A DNA stretch of 13,385 nt from Chloroflexota bacterium (GTDB lineage Bacteria > Chloroflexota > Limnocylindria > Limnocylindrales > CSP1-4). Below the pieces are notes generated by a model that worked only from the letters and a program-made list of their open reading frames with translations, did not search any database and was not told the origin of the DNA. The position numbers were made by a program, and so were the translations under genes. The DNA lies in the NCBI GenBank assembly GCA_021777365.1, contig JAJYDP010000060.1, positions 1 through 13,385 of the forward strand, written 5' to 3'. Numbering within the stretch: the first letter of the stretch is position 1; the number at the start of each line of letters is the position of its first letter. Shown here one piece after another: positions 1,539 through 9,288 of this stretch.

Positions 1539-1618
1539 CGAGGACACTGGAACGGAGCACCTCCCGGCGCGACTGGACGCCGGATCGACCCGCGCCGACG
1601 ATGACGTCTGACGAAGAT

Positions 1619-1644
1619 TGAACCTTTCGTCGCGCTCGGCAGTC
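1619..1644 (+). promoter_or_regulatory. Candidate ECF-type promoter for the sigma operon
   Basis: TGAACC at 1619-1624 resembles the AAC-containing -35 element of ECF promoters. GTC at 1642-1644 lies 18 nt after the AAC, a spacing seen at many ECF promoters. A transcript would begin near 1652 and give a leader of about 40 nt before the ATG at 1690. Autoregulation is common for ECF sigma operons, but one motif match in GC-rich DNA is weak evidence. Confidence 0.3.
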
Positions 1645-1675
1645 ATGTCGGTCACGATGGACGTCATCACGGCGT

Positions 1676-1680
1676 GGGAG
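1676..1680 (+). promoter_or_regulatory. Ribosome binding site deciding the sigma factor start
   Basis: GGGAG lies 9 nt before ATG 1690. The upstream in-frame starts (TTG 1618, ATG 1645, ATG 1657) lack a comparable site and would add residues before the normal start of region 2. Confidence 0.55.
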
Positions 1681-1689
1681 ACGAGGCAC

Positions 1690-2223
1690 ATGGCGACCCT
1701 GGATCGCGCGGCTGCCCCGGGGGAGCGTGAGGCCGCGTTCGCACGCCTGGCGGAGACGCAGCTCGACGCGGCCTATCACCTGGCCACCTTCATCCTCGTC
1801 GGCGACCGGGCCGAGGCCGAGGACGCCGTGCACGACGCGGCGCTGCGGGCCTGGGAGCACCTCGGCGAGGTCCGCGATCCGGCCCGCTTCGAGGCGTGGT
1901 TCACGCGCATCGTCGTGAACGTCTGCCGGGATCGCATCGCCGGCCGTCGCACGCGACCCGTCACGCTGGCCGACCCGGACCCTGGCGCAGCGCCCGACCA
2001 CGCCGACGCCTTCGCCCGCTCCGACGCGCTCGAGCAGGCCATGCGCTCGCTCTCAGCGGACCAGCGCATCGTGATCGGCCTGCGCTTCGTCGAGGACCGC
2101 TCGATCGAGGAGATCGCCCTGCGCACCGGCGAACGACCGGGCACGGTCAAGAGCCGGCTCCACTACGCCCTGCGCGCGCTGCGCGCCGCGCTCGAGGCGG
2201 ACGCGCGGGAGGTCGTCCCATGA
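1690..2223 (+). CDS. RNA polymerase ECF (extracytoplasmic function) sigma factor
   Basis: A 177-residue cytosolic transcription initiation factor of sigma-70 group 4. Region 2 spans about residues 14-87, with the region 2.2 signature EAEDAVHDAALRAWEHL at 42-58 (core RNA polymerase contact) and the -10-recognition helix WFTRIVVNVCRDRIAGRR at 70-87. An acidic, Ala/Pro-rich linker (about 93-112) leads to region 4 at 113-170. Its SLSADQRIVIGLRFVED and SIEEIALRTGERPGTVKSRL segments form the helix-turn-helix that reads the -35 element. Length and domain order are normal for a compact ECF sigma. ATG 1690 was chosen for its GGGAG ribosome site. The stop overlaps the next ATG as ATGA, so it is translationally coupled to the downstream membrane propeller gene, its likely regulator. 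The ECF subgroup cannot be assigned by eye. Confidence 0.95.
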   Translation: MATLDRAAAPGEREAAFARLAETQLDAAYHLATFILVGDRAEAEDAVHDAALRAWEHLGEVRDPARFEAWFTRIVVNVCRDRIAGRRTRPVTLADPDPGAAPDHADAFARSDALEQAMRSLSADQRIVIGLRFVEDRSIEEIALRTGERPGTVKSRLHYALRALRAALEADAREVVP

Positions 2224-4517: not shown

Positions 4518-4591
4518 ACAACCTCGCAGGCTGCCGCGGCAGTGTGGGCGCTCGTCCTATCAACATCTTCCAACACTTGCTGCCGCACTAA

Positions 4592-4599
4592 TCTCGTTC
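4592..4599 (+). repeat. Left 8-bp target site duplication TCTCGTTC
   Basis: TCTCGTTC directly abuts the left inverted repeat and recurs exactly at 9107-9114 directly abutting the right one. The base before each copy differs (A versus T). The following 12 bases also match, because the flanking palindrome arm resembles the element's own end; this makes a 20-bp direct repeat (4592-4611 and 9107-9126). Confidence 0.75.
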
Positions 4600-4635
4600 A
4601 GAGACCGGCAGGACGTGTTGATTGAGTGGTGGTAA
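4600..4635 (+). repeat. Left terminal inverted repeat of the transposase element
   Basis: Boxes from the tip inwards: AGAGACCGGCAG, GAC, GTGTTG, ATTGAGTG, GTGGTAA. The first 25 bases equal the reverse complement of 9082-9106. The internal GTGTTG and GTGGTAA boxes are likely transposase binding sites. Confidence 0.8.
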
Positions 4636-4655
4636 CCCCGACGAGATCCCGGGCC

Positions 4656-4683
4656 TTGACCGGCCGATACGAGCCGTTACGCT
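4656..4683 (+). promoter_or_regulatory. Candidate promoter giving a leaderless transcript
   Basis: TTGACC (4656-4661), 16 nt, TACGCT (4678-4683). Transcription would start about 7 nt later, at or next to ATG 4691, giving a leaderless mRNA, which is common in high-GC phyla. The -35 match is good and the -10 match is partial. It lies inside the element, so the passenger gene would carry its own promoter. Confidence 0.4.
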
Positions 4684-4690
4684 GGCGAGG

Positions 4691-5617
4691 ATGGACCGAG
4701 CGAGGCGGACGATGAGGACCGCGGCACACTCCGACCACCGAGACTTGGCTCCTGTGCCCGTTTGGGTGCGCCCCTTGGCAGGATGGGCGGCCGCCGCCCT
4801 CGCCGCGGCGATCGTGCTGTTGGACCTGATGATGCTGTGGCCTGGCGCTTCCGGGACTGCGTATGTGCTCTCGCTGGCGGCCGGCGTTGCTTCGGATGGG
4901 CTGATCGTCGGCCTCCTCGCACTCGTGCTGCTCCGTCCGGTCGGGCTCCGCTCCGCCGACCGCGGACTCGTCCTTGGTGCGGTCGTGTTTGCCCTGGCCG
5001 TGGTCTATCGCGTCGGCATCAACCTGCTCGCGCGGCTCGCCGCACCGAGCGAGCCCACCCTCGCGCTGCCGACCGGACCATACGTGGATCCCTTGGTCGA
5101 GTCTGGGCTCCGCGCGGTTGGAGCCTGGCTCTTGGCGGCAGGCATTGCTCAACTCGTGGGAGCCCGACGGGGCCGTTTGGCCACATGGTCAGGCCCTCAG
5201 CTCGCGGCTGCCGTCAGCGGCATATGTGTGGCCGGACTCATTCTCGCGGCTGCGGCATTCGTGGCACCGGTCACACAGAACCGCGGAGAAGTCCCCTGGG
5301 CGCTCGAGGTGCTTGCCTGGACCGTCCTTGGGGTCGGCGCGCTGACCCGGCCGTTGGTGTCGCGGACCCGCTGGCTCGTCGCGGCCGGCGCGGGTCTCCT
5401 GGTTGCGAGCTCGGCGGTCGCCGCTGTTGATCTCCTTGTCCAAGGCTGGTGGTGGGGACCGGTTCGCGCCTGGTTCCCGGCCCTACTCAACTGGCACGGC
5501 GCATACGTCTATGTCGGCGAGCTCGACTTCCTCGGGTGGGCGGCCCTCTGGCTCGGCCTGGTCGGCCTCACCCTCGCGCCTGGGCCCACTGCCCCGGTCT
5601 CCACGCCCAAGCGCTGA
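4691..5617 (+). CDS. Multi-pass membrane protein of unknown function (transposon passenger)
   Basis: 308 residues from ATG 4691. ATG 4712 is an alternative and has GCGAGG 7 nt upstream. The frame also runs back to a TTG at 4622 inside the inverted repeat, which looks incidental. About eight hydrophobic helices can be seen, among them WAAAALAAAIVLLDLMML, LIVGLLALVLL, LVLGAVVFALAVVY, AVGAWLLAAGIAQL, ISGICVAGLI-like and WLVAAGAGLLVASSAVAAV stretches, ending with GWAALWLGLVGLTLAPG and a short polar tail. There is no signal peptide, transporter signature or catalytic motif I can name. It lies between the element's left end and the convergent exonuclease gene, so it moves with the element. A role in transposition is not evident; it may be captured host cargo. 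Confidence 0.75.
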   Translation: MDRARRTMRTAAHSDHRDLAPVPVWVRPLAGWAAAALAAAIVLLDLMMLWPGASGTAYVLSLAAGVASDGLIVGLLALVLLRPVGLRSADRGLVLGAVVFALAVVYRVGINLLARLAAPSEPTLALPTGPYVDPLVESGLRAVGAWLLAAGIAQLVGARRGRLATWSGPQLAAAVSGICVAGLILAAAAFVAPVTQNRGEVPWALEVLAWTVLGVGALTRPLVSRTRWLVAAGAGLLVASSAVAAVDLLVQGWWWGPVRAWFPALLNWHGAYVYVGELDFLGWAALWLGLVGLTLAPGPTAPVSTPKR

Positions 5618-5753
5618 CCTGGCCCTCGTCCGGCCCAAGGCGCGAGGGCACGAGCGCGGTCCGCCAGACGGCTGGGTTGATCGCCCCATCCCTGTCTCCT
5701 TCGCCGTGCATGCAGGCGATGGCTCCGTCAAGGTTGCGCTCGAGTGCGACATC

Positions 5754-5784
5754 GGGCGGGGTAGCGACCGGCGTTACCCCGCCC
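5754..5784. terminator. Strong hairpin between convergent genes, overlapping the exonuclease stop
   Basis: GGGCGGGGTA (5754-5763) pairs perfectly over 10 bp with TACCCCGCCC (5775-5784) across an 11-nt loop. The exonuclease TAA (5776-5774 on the minus strand) lies at the inner edge of one stem arm. No U-tract follows in either direction, so factor-independent termination is uncertain. Its position between two convergent genes suits a bidirectional 3'-end structure. Confidence 0.45.
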
Positions 5785-7408
5785 GCAGGAATCTCGGCTG
5801 GCGCGTCGGGCGCTGCGGCGTGAGGGAGTGGTGATGCTCGGTCGGAGGGTGCGTCAGTCGGGCCAGGCGAGCTCCGACCTGAGCCGCACGGATCGCGAGG
5901 CTTGACCACGCGGGATCAGTGCTCCCGTTCCGGGCGCGCAGGACGCGCCGGCAGTCCCGAAGAGCGGCAACGAGGTCGGTGGGGCGGCCGCCTGCCGACG
6001 TGGTGATGGCCCGAGCCTCGGCGATGTAGGGGTCGCGGCAGCCCTCCTGGCGCCACACCTGGTCCGTCAGCTGCGCCGCCGTGCCCGCCTCGCCATGCTC
6101 CCGGTAGAAAGCGTGACAGAAGCGGAGCACGGTATCGGCGAGCAAGGGCGCGTTGCAGTGCATGGCCGCGTAGCCGCGCCCCGCGCCCTTGCTCGACGCC
6201 GCGACGGTGGCCGAGCGCGTGTTCCAGAAGGCGACGACCTGGACGCGGTCCGCGCTGATCACGGAGGAGACGAGCCCCGCGCGCCACACGTCAGTGGGAC
6301 ATGGATCCCCGGCGCGGCAGGCCGGACACTGATCGTGTGCTCCGCAGCGTTCGATCGGGGCCAGGAGGGCCTCGAGCCAGTTGTGCAGGGCTACCGCCAC
6401 GCCGCGCTGACCGCGCTGCCCGGTGAGACGCGTGAGCTGGGGCCCTTCGGCTCGCATCGCCTCGATCGTGTCGGGGAGCAACCCCAGCAGCGGCATGAGC
6501 GCGCCGAGCACGGTGGCCGCGCCTGCCTGATCGCCAGCGGCCGCGGCGTCCCGCAGGGCCGCGAGCAGGAGCGTCCGCAGGTGCCGCGGCGGAGCGGCGG
6601 CGCTCCGACCCGCCAACCCGTCGCAGCGGAGCGAGGCGCACTCGCCGATCCAAGTCCGCCATTGCGCGAACTGCCCTGGGGTCGGCTGCTCGGGCAGGAT
6701 CTGCCCGTGGGTCTCGATGTGTGAGGGTGTGACCACGGGTGCCGCAATCTTCGGAGCCCGGGACCGCTCGAGCTGACGTGCCGCCACCATCGAACCCGTG
6801 GTCCCGCCATTGAGCTCGGTGAGCAGCGCGTCGAGGTCGGTGTAGCCGGCCTCCTCGGCTCGCCGCAGGAGCTCGCAGGCGGACTCCGCGGTGGCCGATG
6901 CGTCGGCGAGCGCGTCGTGCGCGGCGTGGTTCTCGATCCCGAGTGTCTCGAGCAGTCGCGTGAGCTTGTGAGAGCGAAGCGACACGCCGGCGAGGCGCAC
7001 GAGCGGTCCGGCGGTGTCGAGGATGGGGAGCTCGGGCAGCGGCTCGCCCTTGACCCGCGCGATCTCGTTGCGCAGCACGGGCACGTCGAAACCCGCCCAG
7101 TGGGCGGCCAGCACCACCCGCTCGCGGTTCCGGGCCTCGAGGAGCCGCGCGAACTCCGGGAGCACCTCCGCGAACGTCGGCTCGTCGGCGAGGTGCTCGT
7201 CGGTGAGGTGGTGGATCGTGGTGGTCTTCCGATCTACGGGCACCTCCGGGTTGATGAGCCAGCCGAAACGCTGCTTGATTCCTCCGGCCCGACAGATGGC
7301 CACGCCGAGCGCCACGATGCGATGGGCGTTGCCGGGGGCCACGCACGTCTCGAGGTCGAGCACCACGAGGCGCAGGTTCGCGGGCGGGCCCCACAGCGCG
7401 CCGCTCAC
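5774..7408 (-). CDS. DEDDh-family 3'-5' exonuclease with Cys-rich C-terminal extension, coupled to the transposase
   Basis: 544 residues. The N-terminal 190 residues form an RNase T/DnaQ-type exonuclease domain with all catalytic residues: ExoI VVLDLET (D18, E20), ExoII LAAHWAGFDVPVL (D108) and ExoIII HAAHDALADA (H164, D169). It is predicted to remove nucleotides from DNA 3' ends with two metal ions, in the cytosol. The remaining 350 residues match nothing I recognise. They include a likely zinc site, C-x5-C-x2-C-x5-C (Cys 355, 361, 364, 370), and a conserved-looking stretch AFWNTRSATVAASSKGAGRG. Typical DnaQ-like proteins are much shorter, so the extension may bind the transposase or DNA. 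The GTG start (7408-7406) overlaps the transposase TGA as GTGA, implying co-translation. GAGGAG lies about 11 nt upstream. The gene is inside the element and intact. A proofreading or repair function unrelated to transposition remains possible. Confidence 0.88.
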   Translation of the reverse strand: MSGALWGPPANLRLVVLDLETCVAPGNAHRIVALGVAICRAGGIKQRFGWLINPEVPVDRKTTTIHHLTDEHLADEPTFAEVLPEFARLLEARNRERVVLAAHWAGFDVPVLRNEIARVKGEPLPELPILDTAGPLVRLAGVSLRSHKLTRLLETLGIENHAAHDALADASATAESACELLRRAEEAGYTDLDALLTELNGGTTGSMVAARQLERSRAPKIAAPVVTPSHIETHGQILPEQPTPGQFAQWRTWIGECASLRCDGLAGRSAAAPPRHLRTLLLAALRDAAAAGDQAGAATVLGALMPLLGLLPDTIEAMRAEGPQLTRLTGQRGQRGVAVALHNWLEALLAPIERCGAHDQCPACRAGDPCPTDVWRAGLVSSVISADRVQVVAFWNTRSATVAASSKGAGRGYAAMHCNAPLLADTVLRFCHAFYREHGEAGTAAQLTDQVWRQEGCRDPYIAEARAITTSAGGRPTDLVAALRDCRRVLRARNGSTDPAWSSLAIRAAQVGARLARLTHPPTEHHHSLTPQRPTRQPRFLRAG

Positions 7409-9084
7409 AGAAGGCCGCGCTCCTCGGCGATCGCGTTCATGAGCGCCTCGTCACGCAGTGAGCTGTATGTGCCGCGGCGCGGCTGCGGGTCGGCGATCGC
7501 GCGCAGCGGCACGGTCCAGCCGCCCCACGGCAGCTCGTCGGCCTCAATGAGGGCGGCCACCGCGTTGAGGTCAGTGAAGGCGCCCTCGGAGCGGCACACG
7601 GCGAGGTCGAAGAGGTTGTTCGTGCGCTCGATGTTGGCGAACTGGTATTGGCGCTGCGCGAGGAGCGGATCAATCCAGGTGTGGTTGAGGCTCTCGATGC
7701 CGCCCGTGCTCATGCCGAGGCGCGGATCGGCGAGCAGGGCCGGCAGCGCGGCGGCCATCCGGTCCTCGTAGTTGGCACGGCTGCGGCGCAGGTCGTCGAG
7801 CCTGACGGCCCGGCTCTGGATCGCCAGTGCCCCCAGCGTGTCCCACCAGGTGTGCCAGGCGGCCACGCTCTCCATTGCCTTGCCGTCGCGCGCGAGCTGC
7901 GCGAGGTGCGCCCGAAAGGCGTCGCGGTAGGGCCCGCGGAGGGCGTCCTCGAGCGCATTGTTCTCGAGCGCCTGTCCGATGTGCCAGATGCTCGGCACGA
8001 ACAGCGGGCCGGGCGTTCCGAAGTGGCGGCTGACGCCGCTGATGATGCTCGTCGAGGCGTCCGAGAGGATCATGTCGGGCACGTAGCCCATCTCGGCAAA
8101 GGCGAGCCGCCAGGCCGTGCCGTTGAGGGCCGGCATCGCGCGGACGAGCCGCAGCTTGGTGGCGCCGGGCACGGCGGGATCGGTCCAGTCGAGTTCGGCG
8201 AGCACCAGGATGGCGTAGCCGCCGCTCTTCTTGGCGTTGCCCGCGGCGTCCCGCCCGTAGATGGGGAGTTCGTCCAGAATCCACACGAGTGGCTGGCCGG
8301 CCTCGCGCATCGAGGCTGCCCGCTGACGAAGGCGCGCCTCGACAGGCGCCCACACGACCGGCGCGAACGCCTCGACGAGCCCGGCGCCGATCTGCCAGAA
8401 GCGGCCCATGTTCTTGCTCGCCGGCGAGCGGCGCTTGCGCTTCCGCGTGCTCCACCGCCGTCGCGGGCGCGGTGGCTTCGCCGGTGGCCGGCGGCGGCCC
8501 GGGCGGGTCGGCAGGCCCGCGGCGGTGAGCGCGCCGAGCCCTGTCTTCGCATAGCTCAGCCCGAGCGCGGCATCGGACAGGCCGCGGGCCACCACGCGTG
8601 CGGGGAGGCGGTGACGGCGCGCGACAGACCGCTCGCCGCGGTGGAAGCCCCGCAGCTCGAGGCACTCGCGGCAGCTCTCCCCAGCATGGACGTGCGCGCG
8701 GGGGAGTGGGGGCGTGAAGGTGTGCGGCTTGCTGCCGTCGGCCGGCGCGCAGCGGTATCGCTGCCGAGGGCGACCCGCGCGGGCATACACGCCGCAGCGC
8801 ACGACGTGCGAGCCTGGATGCTTCGCGCAGGCAGGCGCCCCGCGGTGCCCTCGCCGGCGCGGTCCCGAGGCGAGCAGGACGGTGAAACGGTGAGGGTCGC
8901 CGACGGCCGGCGAGCAGCGGTAGCTCCGGTAGGTCCCTGAAGGGCGGTGGAACGTCCCCCAGGCGACGACATGAGATCCGCGATGGCGCGGGTCAAGGCA
9001 GCGAGCTGCCGGTGCTGATCTGGGTCGAGGCAACGCCTGACTTCCCTTCTGGGACGCCAGGGACGCGTACGTTACCACTTCCAA
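7405..9084 (-). CDS. DDE transposase with tandem N-terminal zinc-finger-like modules (IS256/MULE-like)
   Basis: 559 residues from TTG 9084, which lies in the terminal repeat just after an in-frame TGA. GTG 9078, or TTG 9033 with AGAAGGGAAG 7 nt upstream (542 residues), are alternatives. The N-terminus has two similar modules, each with Cys, then GSHVV, then YRC (RGSHVVAWG...YRCSP and PGSHVVRCG...YRCAP), plus a CREC motif; these are likely zinc-binding DNA-recognition modules. A basic linker (STRKRKRRSP) leads to the catalytic core: D271 in WILDELPIYG, D342 in MILSDAS, the motif SIWHIGQAL about 25 residues later, and E464 in STGGIESLN. The spacing D-71-D-122-E, the WH motif and the helix QYQFANIERTNNLFDLAV after the Glu resemble IS256/MULE-type enzymes with a helical insertion. 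The frame is intact. It lies next to the right end, reads inwards and is coupled to the exonuclease gene. The exact IS family is uncertain. Confidence 0.85.
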   Translation of the reverse strand: MEVVTYASLASQKGSQALPRPRSAPAARCLDPRHRGSHVVAWGTFHRPSGTYRSYRCSPAVGDPHRFTVLLASGPRRRGHRGAPACAKHPGSHVVRCGVYARAGRPRQRYRCAPADGSKPHTFTPPLPRAHVHAGESCRECLELRGFHRGERSVARRHRLPARVVARGLSDAALGLSYAKTGLGALTAAGLPTRPGRRRPPAKPPRPRRRWSTRKRKRRSPASKNMGRFWQIGAGLVEAFAPVVWAPVEARLRQRAASMREAGQPLVWILDELPIYGRDAAGNAKKSGGYAILVLAELDWTDPAVPGATKLRLVRAMPALNGTAWRLAFAEMGYVPDMILSDASTSIISGVSRHFGTPGPLFVPSIWHIGQALENNALEDALRGPYRDAFRAHLAQLARDGKAMESVAAWHTWWDTLGALAIQSRAVRLDDLRRSRANYEDRMAAALPALLADPRLGMSTGGIESLNHTWIDPLLAQRQYQFANIERTNNLFDLAVCRSEGAFTDLNAVAALIEADELPWGGWTVPLRAIADPQPRRGTYSSLRDEALMNAIAEERGLL

Positions 9085-9106
9085 TCAACACGTCCTGCCG
9101 GTCTCT
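9072..9106 (-). repeat. Right terminal inverted repeat of the transposase element
   Basis: Read inwards on the minus strand: AGAGACCGGCAG, GAC, GTGTTG, ATTGGAA, GTGGTAA. The outer 25 bases match the left end exactly. The inner part differs by an indel and substitutions (7 versus 8 nt before GTGGTAA). The longest transposase frame opens inside it. Confidence 0.8.
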
Positions 9107-9114
9107 TCTCGTTC
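9107..9114 (+). repeat. Right 8-bp target site duplication TCTCGTTC
   Basis: An exact copy of 4592-4599, directly abutting the right inverted repeat. It forms the spacer of the palindrome at 9072-9149. Confidence 0.75.
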
Positions 9115-9288
9115 AGAGACCGGCAGCAGGTGTTGGTAGTTGGTGGTAATCCGCGGGGGTGATTGGGTTCCCTGAAGCGAGGGGGGCTGCGATGGTCAGA
9201 TCAGGCGAGCGACTCGCGCAGGCACCGTTCGCGGGTCAGTGCGTGTTCGGGCTGACTACCTGGTAGCAGGCGCGCGTCGGCTCTTGAC

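Follow-up and report, generated by a model that had tools for sequence, protein, structure and literature searches.

Bacterial DDE transposases of the IS256/MULE branch are generally thought to operate with a single element-encoded protein together with host replication or repair. In the IS256-family element ISCth4, one end of the transposon becomes linked to the flank beside its other end across a spacer of few, variable nucleotides, and the circle is then integrated (PMC7780238). Prokaryotic Mutator-superfamily transposases are Mutator-like DDE enzymes, with the TnGBS elements tied to conjugation machinery (PMC3942029). Among eukaryotic elements, the KolobokD transposons of animals combine a DDE transposase with a DEDDh (DnaQ) exonuclease, for which 3′ degradation of intermediates has been proposed (PMC9587614), and a DEDDh nuclease is encoded by a non-transposase gene of P and piggyBac elements (Kapitonov et al., cited in PMC3627910). 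Here, we describe a transposon in a 13,385-nucleotide stretch of a Chloroflexota genome (contig JAJYDP010000060.1; hereafter the window), in which the gene for a DDE transposase overlaps the gene for a DEDDh exonuclease (Table 1). We know of no bacterial element with a division of labor between a transposase and a DEDDh exonuclease. The element belongs to a conserved two-gene transposon family, a finding that is real and stronger than its preliminary description had stated. Judged from sequence, it probably represents an unnamed bacterial DDE transposon family of the IS256/MULE branch in which the two overlapping genes form a fixed pair, with the exonuclease acting in or after the transpososome.

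The pairing recurs well beyond the window. A genome scan with one conserved transposase peptide pattern, blind to the exonuclease, returned 14 transposase loci in 12 genomes, three of them from a single genome (G009), and at all 14 an exonuclease profile matched an open reading frame (ORF) immediately downstream in the same orientation, the exonucleases of L003, L009 and L013 running off contig ends. The transposases of these loci are 30–48% identical to that of the window and come from genomes labelled Chloroflexi, Actinomycetes, Acidimicrobiia, Acidobacteria and Saccharibacteria. An arrangement repeated at 14/14 other loci is far beyond chance, and an adjoining exonuclease is also present at L049, whose transposase matches the same long family and carries an in-frame stop. 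Twelve further loci encode related but shorter or fragmentary transposases (L045–L048, L050–L057). In an unrooted tree of 23 transposases, which omits the broken L008 copy, includes 8 of these 12 exonuclease-less loci and contains several long-branched exonuclease-less rows, one branch with support 100/100 splits the 15 proteins with an exonuclease from the 8 without. The copies from L003 and L006, labelled as Acidobacteria and Saccharibacteria metagenome-assembled genomes (MAGs), group with actinobacterial copies, a placement that may reflect transfer or mis-binned contigs.

The two genes also diverge together. Transposase and exonuclease protein distances are correlated (r = 0.964, permutation p = 0.0001) over 14 pairs that leave out L008 and L049 and include three exonucleases cut by contig ends, and the D, E, D, H and D residues are kept in 14/14 exonucleases of this set. 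Between L009 and L013, the pair for which nonsynonymous and synonymous divergence (dN/dS, NG86) was usable, values were 0.042/0.228 for the transposase (644 codons) and 0.053/0.184 for the exonuclease (406 codons), so both genes are under constraint; more distant pairs failed, except one transposase pair at high divergence. A two-component transposition module, as originally suggested, is well supported by a conserved pair whose genes co-diverge. The survey of homologues found family-wide conservation of the exonuclease neighbor (14/14), of the C-terminal region of this enzyme and of the overlap between the genes (14/15), and neither outcome named beforehand as refuting the idea, that most homologues lack the exonuclease or that a widespread host gene was captured once, was seen. 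The pair likely goes back to a single ancient capture and has since been passed on by common descent.

At the junction itself, both ORFs are present and share the GTGA that was first reported to join them. Across 15 loci including the window, the overlap is 4 nt in 12 (ATGA or GTGA), 1 nt in two (L011 and L014) and absent in one (L002). A ribosome-binding-like sequence precedes the exonuclease start at 6/14 overlapping loci versus 154/1,400 control positions, an enrichment that is suggestive only, and the two genes may be translationally coupled. The transposase is intact, as claimed at the outset, with aligned rows agreeing on D271 (71/71), D342 (69/69) and E464 (67/68). All five DEDDh residues are likewise retained, with D18, E20, D108 and D169 in 52/52 rows and H164 in 51/51, in an alignment that counts the window twice (query and identical database entry) and excludes six weak partial matches (P0122–P0127).

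By curated profile the window transposase falls outside the IS256 family, with no Pfam, NCBIfam (including the IS256 profile) or PHROGs match at E 0.1. Its predicted structure is closest to that of the IS256-family ISCth4 and also matches Hermes and retroviral integrases; Foldseek by itself gave no match to the model at E 0.001. In the model, D271 lies on a strand, D342 just past a strand and E464 at the start of a helix, as expected for the RNase H-fold D, D, E site of a DDE transposon, and the overall fold is predicted to be that of the IS256 family. Several of six scanned shorter relatives gave weak, below-cut-off matches to IS256, IS1249, MULE or Transposase_mut. In PADLOC, residues 192–330 of the transposase weakly matched DpdH (E 0.0012), a similarity taken as chance.

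A protein-database search, which like that for the exonuclease scored ~8,000 candidates sharing most words, found 70 transposase relatives, one being the window's own protein. An entry labelled Chloroflexi is identical over 81% of the window transposase and the closest relative in the tree is from a Chloroflexi MAG, so that a Chloroflexota host is probable; proteins of the family are named ‘hypothetical’ at every readable database name. The long transposase family is rare, occurring in 1/400, 5/395 and 1/296 genomes in draws that include the starting genomes, with three or four candidates scored per genome. No relatives were found among the viral contigs, phage records and plasmid records searched, nor among plasmids with a second, distant query.

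The exonuclease has two parts. Residues 15–175 match PF00929 (E 9.6e-23) and carry the D, E, D, H and D residues of a DnaQ fold, from which 3′–5′ exonuclease activity would be expected; the remaining two thirds have no Pfam match. The superfamily to which the DEDDh domain belongs is very common, and PADLOC models for CRISPR-associated and for candidate defence exonucleases match the domain as well. The protein-database search found 57 exonuclease relatives, one of them the window's own protein. When the exonuclease profile was run on 395 genomes of one class (three or fewer candidates scored per genome), 163 matched at E 1e-25 or better. Among the matches listed, family-level scores (E 1.9e-48 or better) occurred at seven places, all seven adjoining the transposase, whereas weaker matches (E 1.0e-36 down) end at or before model position 247, most near 195, and span the DEDDh domain with at most a short extension; the C-terminal region was thus matched solely beside the transposase. 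In the 12 genomes of the survey, the 14 family-level matches coincide with the 14 loci, and six further matches extend little or not at all beyond the DEDDh domain.

The preliminary description placed both genes inside inverted repeats using coordinates that spanned these genes alone. Containment is borne out with wider ends: the transposon occupies 4600–9106 (4,507 bp), its 23-bp tips are identical, and the 8-bp sequence TCTCGTTC is duplicated exactly on both sides. An ungapped terminal-repeat search of the window found nothing, because the right end sits beyond the membrane-protein gene; when the flanks were compared with gaps allowed, a repeat pair emerged at 4558–4636/9071–9148, scoring 69 against at most 35 for 100 shuffles, and the termini of relatives guided the choice of exact boundaries. 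With these ends, the opposite-strand membrane-protein gene ending at 5617 lies inside the element. Gapped search of 13 loci (window, L001, L002, L004–L008, L010–L012, L014 and L049; the contigs of L003, L009 and L013 have no right flank) found repeats above all 40 shuffles in seven. Margins for L001 and L010 were narrow (48 versus 46 and 49 versus 45) but clear in an ungapped repeat-plus-duplication scan (16 versus 11 and 18 versus 9, 30 shuffles). Exact 8-bp duplications (8/8) flank the elements of the window, L001, L004, L005 and L010, the ends of the last being offset by 3 nt, and these five elements with placed ends span 3.8–4.6 kb. The inverted termini and target duplication of a DDE transposon are therefore both present.

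Table 1. Coordinates of the element, its genes and related features (window positions unless a locus is given)
Feature	Position	Strand	Details
Target-site duplication TCTCGTTC, copy 1	4592..4599	.	8/8 identical to 9107-9114
Terminal inverted repeat, exonuclease side, tip AGAGACCGGCAGGACGTGTTGAT	4600..4636	+	Gapped alignment with other end; identical 23-bp tips
Multi-pass membrane-protein ORF, probable passenger	4691..5617; longer reading from TTG 4622	+	Six predicted hydrophobic segments; inside element ends
DEDDh (DnaQ-fold) 3′–5′ exonuclease	5774..7408	minus	544 aa; C-terminal region conserved, helical (predicted), cysteine-containing
Stop/start overlap GTGA of transposase and exonuclease genes	7405..7408	minus	4 bases
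DDE transposase, divergent IS256/MULE type	7405..9084	minus	559 aa; N-terminal Cys/His motifs; D271, D342, E464, H368
Terminal inverted repeat, transposase side	9072..9106	minus	Gapped alignment; identical 23-bp tips
Target-site duplication TCTCGTTC, copy 2	9107..9114	.	8/8 identity with copy 1
Opposite-strand ORFs with two or more hydrophobic segments	L001:3931-4209, L005:11370-11879, L008:3774-4244, L010:10738-11142, window 4691-5617		
Family-level exonuclease places, 395 genomes, among the matches listed (7)	G009 (three times), G006, G005, G794, G011		

Genome G009 holds three copies of the element. Two of these copies, L059 and L060, share 91.9% identity from the terminal repeat towards the interior, and their alignment stops just outside the repeat, which marks the left boundary independently. 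The same genome contains two 1.6-kb elements, L065:2403-4021 and L066:1575-3204, whose terminal repeat resembles that of the G009 copies (AGTTCGGCAAA..) and which are flanked by 8-bp duplications matching at 8/8 and 7/8 positions, respectively. Both carry a TnpB gene (PF07282, PF01385), and no transposase of the exonuclease-paired family was seen among their ORFs of at least 150 aa. They are probably non-autonomous elements mobilized by the transposase–exonuclease elements of the same genome; Fanzor1 in MuDR-like elements offers a comparison for their TnpB cargo.

What might the exonuclease contribute? Most likely, it is a dedicated transposition subunit that acts on 3′ DNA ends. Working inside the transpososome or directly after it, the enzyme could remove 3′ nucleotides, either flank or spacer bases beside the terminal repeats or 3′ ends at a branched or broken donor, and trimming could leave a 3′ end that is usable, or else an intermediate that is clean and repairable. 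For example, if the element follows an ISCth4-like route, flank or spacer bases at its ends could be stripped by a 3′–5′ exonuclease. In L001, L065 and L066 the outermost 1–3 nt of the two ends are unlike, and in L010 they are offset, with duplications of 7 or 8 of 8, a pattern that fits imprecise 3′ end processing, if weakly. A more ambitious and tentative proposal is that a two-protein bacterial transposase includes the exonuclease as an essential subunit, which trims 3′ flank or spacer nucleotides to expose the attacking 3′-OH; Kolobok, P and piggyBac elements of eukaryotes may have arrived independently at the same solution.

Several observations weigh against a dedicated, family-wide role in transposition. 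Eleven of the 12 loci with shorter or fragmentary transposases lack an exonuclease neighbor, a count that includes L057, where only 562 bases follow the gene, and sets aside L045, where the 63 bases that follow do not allow a judgment; at L053 a DEDDh-type ORF lies 5.6 kb from the shorter transposase. The chemistry of the IS256/MULE branch therefore does not need an exonuclease. Moreover, gapped search found no terminal repeats in L006, L007, L011, L012, L014 and L049, and no target duplication could be placed in L002 (5/8) or L008 (2/8). Variable ends are not a general feature, since the tips of the two sides agree in the window, L004 and L005, and co-divergence is also what simple vertical inheritance of a linked gene pair would give. 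Finally, ISCth4 alone is reported to perform the steps of its pathway in vitro (PMC7780238).

Among other explanations, the strongest is that the exonuclease acts on the donor site, processing broken or gapped DNA after excision and steering repair rather than preparing ends. We regard this as somewhat unlikely: the 3′–5′ polarity predicted from the fold would suit it, but loss of 3′ strands would hinder strand invasion. The KolobokD authors propose that DNA intermediates are degraded from the 3′ end (PMC9587614). Donor-break action is nevertheless the main rival of end trimming, and the present data fit both alike. It is less likely still that the exonuclease is a passenger that aids the host or the element in some other way, such as defence, repair or degradation of competing DNA, and is merely co-expressed with the transposase. 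Transposons often carry passengers, and the DEDDh domain matches the PADLOC models noted above. However, an opposite-strand membrane-protein ORF follows the exonuclease at 5/12 loci, with differing lengths, and was not called by script at 7/12 within the 1.1 kb or less searched, whereas the exonuclease is constant, co-diverges with the transposase and mostly keeps the overlap, which makes a pure passenger role less likely. Chance capture of a host exonuclease by one element, with no general module, has the commonness of the DEDDh superfamily (163/395 genomes) in its favor and is nonetheless highly improbable, being contradicted by adjacency at 14/14 loci of 30–48% transposase identity across several phylum labels, by co-divergence of the genes and by a C-terminal region matched, among the matches listed, solely in transposase context.

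The remaining features concern cargo, decay and target sites. The membrane-protein ORF of the window had no Pfam match at E 0.01, and its counterpart at L008 is DUF6326. At L008:175-1885 a frameshift, and at L049:141-2588 an in-frame TAG, breaks the transposase frame, and the adjoining exonuclease frame is open at both. Outside the element, window positions 1618–2223 encode an extracytoplasmic function (ECF)-type sigma factor (Sigma70_r2, Sigma70_r4_2). Just outside the window element, the flanks (4558–4599 and 9107–9148) resemble outward-pointing copies of its terminal repeat. Without the element, the site would accordingly form a strong palindrome; the joined site folds at −44.1 kcal/mol and beats 100/100 shuffles. 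Joined sites of L005 and L065 did the same, and those of six other elements did not. A preference for palindromic targets had a combined p = 0.15 with preliminary boundaries (n = 9 elements, two without a clean duplication) and p = 0.024 with final boundaries (n = 7), the latter carried by L005 and the window.

More broadly, a clade that keeps an overlapping gene for a 3′–5′ exonuclease provides a natural experiment on the factors that limit how 3′ ends are processed during transposition, and it draws attention to a transposon family whose proteins carry ‘hypothetical’ names. The preliminary description knew of no IS256/MULE-like element with such a partner. For bacteria this stands uncontradicted, as no bacterial transposon with a DEDDh exonuclease gene appeared among the matches listed (titles and abstract starts) in open-licence full-text literature; for eukaryotes, the same pairing is already published in Kolobok, P and piggyBac elements. 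The prokaryotic Mutator-superfamily transposases resemble the window protein in being Mutator-like DDE transposases, but ‘exonuclease’ and ‘nuclease’ have 0 occurrences in the text of PMC3942029, and ISCth4 (PDB 6xgx, 6xg8, 6xgw) differs in that the text of PMC7780238 has no instance of ‘exonuclease’. The closest likeness in gene content is to KolobokD, where a DDE transposase and a DEDDh exonuclease also share one DNA transposon. By published description, KolobokD differs in belonging to the eukaryotic Kolobok superfamily and in having an exonuclease likened to exuperantia, TREX and ERI1. Kolobok elements duplicate TTAA targets, whereas the duplications found here are 8 bp and of other sequence. 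The P and piggyBac elements share a DEDDh nuclease gene with the window family and differ in being eukaryotic and in having transposases of other superfamilies. The bacterial family thus parallels eukaryotic elements that carry the same type of enzyme.

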